Of a stretch of 35,002 nt of DNA, positions 1 to 2,153 are shown piece by piece. The DNA lies in assembly GCA_011390345.1 (NCBI GenBank), contig JAABSP010000054.1, positions 1 to 35,002 on the forward strand. Reading direction: 5' to 3'. Numbering within the stretch: position 1 is the stretch's first letter; each line of letters opens with the position of its first letter. This DNA is from Desulfobacteraceae bacterium. GTDB lineage: Bacteria > Desulfobacterota > Desulfobacteria > Desulfobacterales > JAABSP01. The position numbers were made by a program, and so were the translations under genes. The notes under the pieces were generated by a model that searched no databases, was not told the origin of the DNA, and was given only the letters and a program-made list of their open reading frames with translations.

Positions 1-1498
1 GGAGGGTCTGTTTCTCCCCGAGAAGAATGGGAATCGTCTCTTTTCCCACGATGCGATCCCCCTGCATGTCTAGGATGTCAAAGAATGCGGTTCGGACAAA
101 GACCATGCCGGTGGCCAGAAAAAAGACGGCAAAGGTTGTCAAGGCGATGGTTCCTTTGACGGACAGGGGAGGGAAAAGGGCCGTAACCACCCCCCATGCC
201 AGCGCGATGAGGATGGTCTTGGAGCCGGGAAGATCCCGGATTCTGCGATATTTTCCGCCGATGGCCGAAGGGATGACCCGCAGGTTGTAGGAGAGCCCTA
301 AAAGGCTCATGATCGTAAGGATCAAAAAGGGAAGGGTCCCCATCTCCATCGCCTTCAGCAGCCCTATCATGCCGGCAAACAGTGCAAGGGCGGCCAGGGG
401 ATACTTGTACTTTTCATAGAAGAGGGCTCGGTCCGGATCATTGTACCGGGCCTCCTCCCGGCCGGTGAGATGGTTGAAGATGTGCATGGAGAGTACATAG
501 AGCATCGCTATGAGAATAAAGGGGAGGGCGGGCTCGATCTTCTGCAGCCGGATGCAGGCGTAGCAGAGGGCCCCGGCGCCCAGCGAGACATAGAGATTCG
601 TCTGTAGCAGGAAATATTTGATCCGGTAGACGGCCCGCTGACGGATGTTCTGCTTCGGCCCCAGTGAAATCGTCTCCAGAGAGCGGTAGATCCGCCGGAT
701 GATCCAGTTGGGCGTGGACGCCCCTGCGGTGATCCCTATGCACTTAGCCCCTGAAAGGGCCGAAAGATCGAGTTCCGATTCGGTCTCCACCGGGTAGGCC
801 GGTATACCGACATTTTTCGCGATCTCGGCAAGCCGCTGGGTGTTGCCGCTGTTTTTGCCGCCCACCACCACCAGGGCATCCACCGATTCGGCCATTGCTT
901 TTACCTCGGCCTGACGCTTCTCCGTGGAGTCGCAGATGGTGTCGAAGATCCGGTAATGGGGAAAATTCTCCTGTGCCCATTCCCGGACTTCACCGAAGAA
1001 CCGTGTGTTCTGGGTGGTCTGGGCCACGATGATGGCATTGTCGAAGCGCGGCAGCGCCTCGAGTTCCGCCATTGTGCCGGCCACAATGCCTTTGCCGTCT
1101 GCGTAGCCGAGCAGTCCCACCACCTCGGGATGATCCCGGTCCCCTATGATGATCACTTCGGCCCCTTGCCCCGCATGTTTCGCGATGATCCGCTGCACCC
1201 GGATCACCCGGGGGCAGGTCGCGTCGATGACGGTAAAGCCGGCCCGCTCCAGAGCGATATTGGCTTCCGGAGGTACGCCGTGAGCCCGAATGAGGATCGT
1301 TCCGGACCCCTTTTCCGGAATCTCCTTCAGCACCGTGATCCCCTTCTCCTCCAGCAGTTGGAGCACCTGGGGGTTGTGGATCAGCGGGCCGTAGGTGAAG
1401 ATGGGGGTTCTGTGCTTTCCGGGCGCGTCGAGGACCATCTCCACGGCTCTGCGGACCCCCATGCAGAAGCCAGCGGTCTTTGCGATTGCGATTTTCAT
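1..1498 (-). CDS. ispH: IspH (HMBPP reductase) fused to a UbiA-like membrane domain, 3' end off the window
   Basis: The reading frame opens at ATG 1498 and is still open at base 1 (499 codons seen). Residues 1-280 are a complete IspH/LytB, the [4Fe-4S] enzyme that makes IPP and DMAPP in the last step of the MEP pathway. The three cluster cysteines are Cys12 (AGFCMGVRRA), Cys95 (DATCPRV) and Cys189 (DTICDST). Other active-site residues are His41, His73, His123/Glu125 (DRDHPEVVG), Thr161-162, Ser217/Asn219 and Ser261. A normal IspH would stop soon after this. Here residues 290-499 continue in frame as about six membrane segments with a UbiA-type second motif, FFDILDMQGDRIVGKETIP. The first UbiA Asp motif is degenerate (NHLTGREEA before YNDPDRA). 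The gene begins 10 bases after the CooT-like gene and has no clear Shine-Dalgarno, so it may be translationally coupled. The IspH call is firm; the UbiA-like call rests on motif resemblance. Confidence 0.9.
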   Translation of the reverse strand, partial: MKIAIAKTAGFCMGVRRAVEMVLDAPGKHRTPIFTYGPLIHNPQVLQLLEEKGITVLKEIPEKGSGTILIRAHGVPPEANIALERAGFTVIDATCPRVIRVQRIIAKHAGQGAEVIIIGDRDHPEVVGLLGYADGKGIVAGTMAELEALPRFDNAIIVAQTTQNTRFFGEVREWAQENFPHYRIFDTICDSTEKRQAEVKAMAESVDALVVVGGKNSGNTQRLAEIAKNVGIPAYPVETESELDLSALSGAKCIGITAGASTPNWIIRRIYRSLETISLGPKQNIRQRAVYRIKYFLLQTNLYVSLGAGALCYACIRLQKIEPALPFILIAMLYVLSMHIFNHLTGREEARYNDPDRALFYEKYKYPLAALALFAGMIGLLKAMEMGTLPFLILTIMSLLGLSYNLRVIPSAIGGKYRRIRDLPGSKTILIALAWGVVTALFPPLSVKGTIALTTFAVFFLATGMVFVRTAFFDILDMQGDRIVGKETIPILLGEKQTL

Positions 1499-1508
1499 GC
1501 GGATGGGA

Positions 1509-1703
1509 CTATGGGGAGATCGGCTTGAGAAAGACCTTGTGGTCCACCAGAGAGAGGGAATGGATTTCGGCCTTGATGAACTTCTGGTCCCCGAAGATGT
1601 TGATGATGGTCAGGCCCCCGTTGTCGGGCTCCACCCGGTCCACGGCCTCCATGATGAGTTTCGGGCCGTCGGATTCCATGAGATAGGCGTTGGCTTCACA
1701 CAT
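1509..1703 (-). CDS. CooT-like small (Ni-binding family) protein
   Basis: This 64-residue protein starts MCEANAYL, with the invariant Cys2 of the CooT family, and continues with a predicted small beta-barrel (GLTIINIFGDQKFIKAEIH, ending VDHKVFLK). CooT of Rhodospirillum rubrum is a small nickel-binding protein involved in nickel supply to CO dehydrogenase. Many anaerobes carry homologues away from coo genes, and no CO dehydrogenase gene is visible here. It lies 15 bases after the DUF3842 gene and 10 bases before ispH, so the three are probably co-transcribed. An AGGAG lies about 12 bases before the ATG. The family call is from the N-terminal signature and size; a role in metal handling is inference. 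Confidence 0.75.
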   Translation of the reverse strand: MCEANAYLMESDGPKLIMEAVDRVEPDNGGLTIINIFGDQKFIKAEIHSLSLVDHKVFLKPISP

Positions 1704-1718: not shown

Positions 1719-2153
1719 CTATTGAAATTCCTCCCGCAGCAGCGGGATCAGGTGATCCTGGATCAGGGCGTCGATGAGATGGGGCAGGGGCGCAGGGGCC
1801 ACTCCGACGATCTCGACGTTCTCCTGGGTGAGGGGGATGAGCAGCTTTTTCGCCTCGCTTCCGGAGATGGCCTCGGCCATCTTGGGCGTCACCTCCCCCA
1901 TCATGGCATGGGCCATAAGGATGCTCACCGGGCCGATGATCACATCGGCCGTCCGCGCAGTTCGGACGATGGCGTTTTCCCCGGATGCCCCCCGATTGGC
2001 CTTGGCTTTGAGCATCTGCGCGGTCGCGATGGCATTGGTTCCGATGGCCACGATCTCCACGGTCTCCTCAAAGCGCTCCTTGAGCTTCTTGATGACCGCA
2101 CTGCCGATGCCGCCGCCCTGTCCGTCCACCACGCAGATTCGTTTGGTACTCAT
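1719..2153 (-). CDS. DUF3842 family protein
   Basis: This 144-residue soluble protein starts MSTKRICVVDGQGGGIGSA, a glycine-rich turn after a first beta strand as in nucleotide-binding Rossmann-like folds. It also has a conserved-looking centre (ANRGASGENAIVRTARTAD, then VIIGPVSILMAHAMMGEVTP). I recognise this as the DUF3842 type found in clostridia and Desulfobacterota; its function is not known to me. It sits directly upstream of the CooT-like gene with a 15-base gap, which suggests a shared transcript and possibly a shared role. The Shine-Dalgarno before ATG 2153 is weak. Confidence 0.75.
   Translation of the reverse strand: MSTKRICVVDGQGGGIGSAVIKKLKERFEETVEIVAIGTNAIATAQMLKAKANRGASGENAIVRTARTADVIIGPVSILMAHAMMGEVTPKMAEAISGSEAKKLLIPLTQENVEIVGVAPAPLPHLIDALIQDHLIPLLREEFQ

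Follow-up and report, generated by a model that had tools for sequence, protein, structure and literature searches.

The locus analysed here raises the question of why IspH should be carried on one polypeptide with a membrane domain of the UbiA superfamily whose first aspartate motif is degenerate, and what such a domain may do. IspH (LytB) catalyses the final step of the isoprenoid pathway in bacteria, as an HMBPP reductase making IPP and DMAPP; it is an essential iron-sulfur enzyme which has mostly been studied as a soluble protein. In the window, by which we mean the whole stretch of 35,002 nucleotides, the fused ispH-ubiA frame occupies positions 2-1498 of the minus strand with 499 open codons from its ATG to the contig edge, and the single open frame through IspH and membrane part that the earlier note had described was found to hold over all 499 codons without a stop. 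We consider it somewhat probable that a UbiA fold which no longer performs ordinary two-metal prenyl transfer keeps an active IspH at the membrane. IspH activity, membrane orientation, loss of the transferase and the anchoring role are the parts of this reading that we infer.

The genome is in 199 contigs, of which the window is C158, and the fused frame is truncated by the contig start, with its 3' end lying beyond the window. Contig C135 of the same genome opens with the same UbiA region (window 1-640 against L002 1-642, 96.5% nucleotide identity) and its frame stops about 77 codons past the window edge. The extension to the true C-terminus that the earlier note had proposed is supplied by this overlap, and the full-length fusion would be about 576 amino acids, as estimated from the overlap of two unjoined contigs. 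Over the 207 codons compared, the two contigs show 22 base differences, with 17 synonymous and 5 non-synonymous codon changes; pN/pS between the two copies is 0.10, and the UbiA region of the fusion is under purifying selection. The copies appear to be a single gene as carried by two strains. The motif NHLTGREEA is present on both contigs and is therefore not a base-calling slip. Such an overlap within one genome also points to an assembly of more than one strain.

A gene at a contig edge, read from two contigs which disagree at those 22 bases, may be suspected to be an artefact, in which a frameshift or a contig misjoin links two separate genes. This explanation has next to no probability, and an assembly artefact was ruled out by independent genomes with the same fused frame. 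Two samples were used, the first with 58 genomes, the window's own counted, and the second with 148 genomes sampled evenly across the phylum. A single frame spanning both parts was found in 48 of the 58, with a length of 575-659 amino acids except for the cut window (536), and the frameshift between residues 280 and 300 that might have undone the fusion was looked for and not seen. Among the other ten, contig edges interrupt the locus in G038 and G007, five have IspH alone (in G052, one such genome, the frame stops after the IspH part) and three are without a match. The phylum sample has 66 fused genomes by reading of the match table, 75 with unfused IspH and 7 without a match; 55 of the 66 align to the family profile through the C-terminus (G076 with a broken frame) and 11 have a long frame with a more divergent C-terminus. 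With four genomes shared, the two samples give 110 fused genomes. The fusion is also present in 80 named loci (L201 cut by the contig end), most of which are titled Desulfobacterales, Desulfobacteraceae or a Desulfo- genus and the rest under broader names. The survey for the same fusion proposed earlier has found the fused frame in relatives and across the phylum alike.

The IspH domain spans residues 1-277 (668..1498, minus strand). The LYTB profile (PF02401) matches residues 3-274 with 301.8 bits (cut-off 24.5), covering profile positions 1-266 of 267, and the cluster cysteines C12, C95 and C189 are all present and invariant in a 40-row alignment. These results agree with the complete IspH with three cluster cysteines which had been read from the sequence at the outset. 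In the predicted fold of the named relative L153, residues 1-278 superpose on IspH 3dnf with Z 32.0. The IspH part of the fusion is probably catalytically working. It is followed by a poorly conserved linker at about residues 278-292 (623..667, minus strand); mean pairwise identity in the window's order is 0.25 over residues 278-295, 0.63 over IspH and 0.52 over the UbiA part.

The UbiA-superfamily membrane domain (2..622, minus strand; about residues 293-499, cut by the contig edge) was matched by PF01040 over residues 311-498 with 39.9 bits, above the cut-off of 34.2, and the full-length relative L153 reaches 54.9 bits against the same cut-off. AlphaFold2 was run on L153, which is 72% identical, with the 40-row alignment in which the cut window protein is one row only, and the model has pLDDT 88.3 and pTM 0.81. 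Residues 299-569 of this model superpose on ApUbiA 4od5 with Z 19.6 (254 residues, rmsd 3.1) and residues 293-569 on AfUbiA 4tq3 with Z 18.6; the next structural matches of the C-terminal part are soluble prenyl synthases up to Z 16.4, and UBIAD1 of the HMGCR complex (8djk_B) gives Z 15.6. Foldseek with the same model ranked IspH first and then UbiA homologues, and when the UbiA part was compared with PDB sequences by profile, no match appeared up to E = 10. The UbiA fold of the C-terminal domain is thus shown as a prediction, and the assignment of the membrane part to the UbiA superfamily, made at first from its sequence, is upheld by the profile and by the predicted fold of L153.

The canonical first motif of UbiA proteins is NDxxDxxxD. 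In the window its place is taken by NHLTGREEA (residues 342-350; 449..475, minus strand), in which by alignment column Asn1 is kept and the three aspartates are replaced by H2, G5 and A9, so that the degeneracy noticed earlier was confirmed by the alignment columns. The second motif DILDMQGD is intact at residues 474-481 (56..79, minus strand), also as had been stated. Two further residues were placed by alignment column, i.e. Y404 (287..289, minus strand), the proposed equivalent of Tyr139 of AfUbiA, and K427 of R-D-x-P-G-S-K (218..220, minus strand), which may correspond to the diphosphate-binding Lys146 of AfUbiA.

These columns were tabulated for 108 of the 110 fused genomes, 50 in the window's order and 58 outside; G087 (pattern miss) and G076 (broken frame) were left out, the contig-edge cuts G007 and G038 were also unused, and the motif columns of the most eroded C-termini hang on a forced alignment. 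In the order, Asn1 is kept in 49, Asp9 in 39 and Asp5 in only 2 (Gly in 38), while Tyr and Lys are present in all 50 and the motif-2 residues D1, D4 and D8 in 44, 47 and 47, respectively. Asp5, the equivalent of the metal ligand D72 of AfUbiA, is hence gone in 48 of the 50 fusions of the order and kept in 40 of the 58 outside, where Asn1 is found in 46, Asp9 in 5, D4 in 34 and D8 in all 58. The full set of AfUbiA metal ligands (Asn1, Asp5 and motif-2 D4 and D8) is present in 25 of the 108 fusions, one in the order and 24 outside. The 80 named loci have Asp9 in 73 and Asp5 in 8 (all with Asp9 too), with Tyr and Lys in 80/80 each, and Ala at position 9, as in the window, in one. Motif-2 D4 is changed to A in 15 of them, including four Desulfobacula loci looked at (D. 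toluolica not among them), in which position 5 is T, M or S. A conserved residue near the place of AfUbiA R22 is Asn in 45 of the 50 order fusions and 79 of the 80 named loci, a placement taken from structural-alignment ends only; it rests on structural ranges because a MAFFT alignment with one canonical UbiA had helix 1 plainly in the wrong place. As judged from these alignments, the degenerate first motif is a trait of the whole order and not an accident of the window gene.

The weight of these losses can be taken from AfUbiA, in which one Mg2+ is coordinated by N68 (Asn1) and D72 (Asp5) and the second by the motif-2 residues D198 and D202, D76 (Asp9) is too distant for direct metal binding and the diphosphate is held by R22 and K146 (PMC4106721). 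GPP binding was abolished in four of six alanine mutants, and since D198A and D202A are named as mild in the passages of that source drawn on here, the four non-binders would be N68, D72, R22 and K146; in EcMenA, mutants of the equivalents of N68, D72, D198 and D202 lost function (PMC4106721). Active UBIAD1 has the first motif N102TYYDFSKG, with Asp5 kept and Asp2 and Asp9 absent (PMC9314443), and therefore Asn1 and Asp5 together appear to be the least that a working site needs. Of these two residues, expected at least in a canonical UbiA prenyltransferase, the window protein keeps Asn1 and lacks Asp5, with its second motif present.

The domain may nevertheless still transfer prenyl groups from DMAPP or from longer diphosphates that IspH supplies on the spot, with Asp9 or some other residue replacing Asp5; this is the Rosetta-stone reading of Rao et al. 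2015. The predicted UbiA fold, the 24 fusions outside the order with all four metal ligands and the 94-100% retention in the order of Asn1, Tyr, Lys and the two metal-binding aspartates of motif 2 are in agreement with such activity, and Asp9, an aspartate in 39 of the 50, might substitute for the lost ligand. However, Asp5 is lost in nearly the whole order and the window lacks Asp9 too, the AfUbiA Asp5 mutant is without GPP binding (PMC4106721), and nearly every fused relative has other UbiA proteins. Compensation of Asp5 loss by Asp9 was itself considered and rejected: the raw table (n=107) looks exclusive, with 37 fusions having Asp9 only, 36 Asp5 only, 6 both and 28 neither, but independent tree pairs give no support, and the Asp5/Asp9 swap may be a single event. 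We regard continued prenyl transfer as doubtful, and anchoring, possibly with prenyl-diphosphate binding, is modestly favoured over it because the metal site is incomplete in the order.

The other UbiA proteins deserve a closer account. One further UbiA, with the canonical motif NDVVDYQTD, is encoded in the window's genome beside a UbiE-type methyltransferase; the separate UbiA which had been suggested as a thing to look for was thus found, quinone prenylation need not fall to the fusion, and for this genome the possibility that the fusion is the cell's only UbiA is ruled out. Among fused relatives, no PF01040 protein beyond the fusion was found in G024 (92% complete) and G054 (84%), and in G050 a second PF01040 match was not among the matches listed. 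The methyltransferase beside the separate UbiA (L233:3800-4564, minus strand, contig C50) has MpqE as its best NCBIfam model at 280.5 bits, below the cut-off of 335, and scores above the cut-off of TIGR01934; MpqE belongs to methyl-plastoquinone biosynthesis. Contig C135 also carries a 1605-residue frame (L234:2454-7271, minus strand), a hybrid sensor kinase by eye, with a KEE repeat run.

Upstream of ispH-ubiA in the window are a CooT-like small protein (1509..1703, minus strand; PF10133, 84.3 bits), which ends 10 bases before the ispH-ubiA start, and a DUF3842 protein (1719..2153, minus strand; PF12953, 192.9 bits). CooT is a CO dehydrogenase accessory protein. In 63 loci of the order, with neighbours named by eye save for the window's CooT and DUF3842, the recurrent ones are ParB (49), ParA (46), CooT (27), DUF3842 (24) and PlsY-like proteins (19); CooT and DUF3842 lie directly upstream of ispH-ubiA in many of these loci, near ParA/ParB. 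No recurrent neighbour of prenyl metabolism and no prenyl acceptor was seen in the 63 loci, where polyprenyl-synthase-like and DXS-like neighbours occur once each, as compared to 4 and 3 times in 37 loci outside the order. A partner for the fusion was sought by this route, and no prenyl partner is indicated by the genes that recur. A CruF-type-like carotenoid membrane protein (by eye) lies one to two genes upstream in 7 of the 37 loci outside the order, including L095.

The history of the fusion was followed on a tree of IspH with 132 rows (FastTree only; G076 and G182 left out), which includes 25 (5 + 20) of the roughly 80 unfused IspH seen. The fusions cluster in a single block, within which unfused IspH sit at several points, and there are seven fused/unfused changes, four of them forced by starred branches; four unfused IspH (G015, G040, G051 and G057) are nested in the window's order. 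A single gain of the fusion with repeated loss of the UbiA part would be the simplest reading of this tree, though not a proof. No stand-alone copy of the fusion's UbiA subfamily was seen among the 148 genomes, where the best non-fused match to the UbiA part, among the matches listed, has 25.6 bits, barring the C135 piece and a second piece of the fused frame of G124; because of this, the sample offers no unfused ancestor. Asp5 occurs on many branches surrounding the order and its state changes eight times among the fusions, and it appears to have been lost near the base of the window's order.

Stronger erosion seems to have arisen separately in G086/G121/G170/G193, in G124/G149 and in a third group adjoining G190, G190 itself still having Asp5. 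The C-termini of the first two groups align to UbiA profiles with HHalign probabilities of 95.0-99.7%, against 0.2-0.5% for three unrelated membrane families used as controls. For the third group, with G082, G118, G144 and G167 (frames of 547-553 amino acids), which perhaps are Thermodesulfobacteria, HHalign gave 51% and 16%, and descent of these C-termini from UbiA is likely on the comparisons made. No Pfam UbiA match is listed for two eroded loci, L073 of the 547-553 amino acid group and L083, and L075 has 16.7 bits, below the cut-off.

In the mechanism that we propose, IspH would make IPP and DMAPP as usual and the UbiA fold would fix it to the cytoplasmic face of the membrane. The UbiA domain of the order, and more so that of the window's species, has lost the metal-ligand aspartate of the first motif, and would perhaps bind a prenyl diphosphate or lipid via the conserved Asn, Tyr, Lys and second motif. 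The average identity of 52% within the order, the conserved Tyr, Lys, Asn1, D4 and D8 and the low pN/pS together suggest retained binding or catalysis, and the domain is not simply decaying. That Asn1, Tyr, Lys and the second motif are so strongly conserved tells more than any other result against anchoring alone, and because of it we have kept a further reading in which the domain is a prenyl-diphosphate sensor adjusting the activity or stability of IspH. The analogy is with UBIAD1, which senses GGPP and controls HMG-CoA reductase (PMC9314443), and in both cases the same fold would be coupled to a reductase of an isoprenoid pathway, UBIAD1 being among the structural matches, where soluble prenyl synthases score higher. 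Conservation of the binding residues alongside loss of the catalytic ligand also fits a sensor, whereas the seemingly repeated loss of the UbiA domain with IspH retained and the neighbourhoods of the order, which show no recurrent prenyl-metabolism gene, speak against it, and we hold a sensor to be improbable. The bolder form, a retired UbiA that senses membrane prenyl diphosphate and feeds back on IspH as an independent, one-chain parallel to UBIAD1/HMG-CoA reductase, would be a slightly longer shot still.

The interpretation offered at first, that IspH is tethered to the membrane or that the domain handles a diphosphate without normal two-metal chemistry, remains compatible with our results, and its degenerate motif has turned out to be an order-wide trait. 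Novelty is not supported, as the fusion was described in 2015 and membrane localisation was proposed at that time (PMC4746011). Rao et al. 2015 listed 47 IspH-UbiA 'Rosetta stone' proteins, mainly of Desulfobacterales, classed their UbiA part as PT_UbiA_5 of unknown function, noted a separate UbiA/MenA and suggested a possible role of the UbiA domain in recruiting IspH to the membrane (PMC4746011). Two DXXXD repeats led them to think prenyltransferase activity likely; a Desulfobacula protein was modelled, the fusions were stated to occur only in sulfate reducers and, according to the parts of the paper drawn on here, an active full-length protein was not obtained (PMC4746011). No other paper on the fusion was found by title or abstract among the matches listed, mostly outside the subscription literature; PMC12605070 contains the words IspH, UbiA and Rosetta stone, and the matches listed for UbiA pseudoenzymes and Asp motifs hold nothing on the IspH-UbiA family. 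The erosion of the first motif is real, and no description of it was found in the literature searched, as far as the text of those sources goes. The motif counts weaken the case that Rao et al. 2015, the only fusion paper found, made for enzyme activity. If the proposed reading is true, a membrane fusion that persists order-wide after losing its prenyltransferase ligand would imply that a large, mostly sulfate-reducing bacterial group positions or regulates its isoprenoid supply at the membrane. The outcome is a useful correction and a testable question, ordinary as a discovery since the fusion has been known from 2015.

Compared with the published family, the window protein has the same make-up, i.e. 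an N-terminal IspH in frame with a C-terminal UbiA-like domain, mainly in Desulfobacterales, and falls within the family as Rao et al. defined it. Two DXXXD were reported there, whereas the first motif of the window is without all three canonical aspartates; our guess is that Rao et al. may have counted Asp9 to Asp13 (D-x-Y-N-D), not the canonical positions, as their first 'DXXXD'. In contrast to the stated restriction to sulfate reducers, in the text drawn on, 15 of the 66 fused phylum genomes lack dsrA over the curated cut-off; dsrA is found in 51 of the 66 and in 23 of the 75 unfused ones (raw counts, with kinship uncorrected), and the fusion thus favours dsrA genomes and is not confined to them. 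IspH-RPS1 fusions also join IspH to a C-terminal partner, which in that case is ribosomal protein S1, and the window protein scores 304.8 against the model cut-off of 624, by its IspH part only. AfUbiA and ApUbiA (4tq3, 4od5) have in common with the fusion the predicted fold, the second motif, the Asn of the first motif and a Tyr, whereas here the D72 equivalent is Gly, the R22 place appears to be Thr/Asn and the domain is fused to IspH. UBIAD1 (8djk) is likewise a UbiA fold coupled to a reductase of the isoprenoid pathway and is also without Asp2 and Asp9 of the first motif; unlike the window fusion, it keeps Asp5, is a separate protein and is described as an active enzyme.
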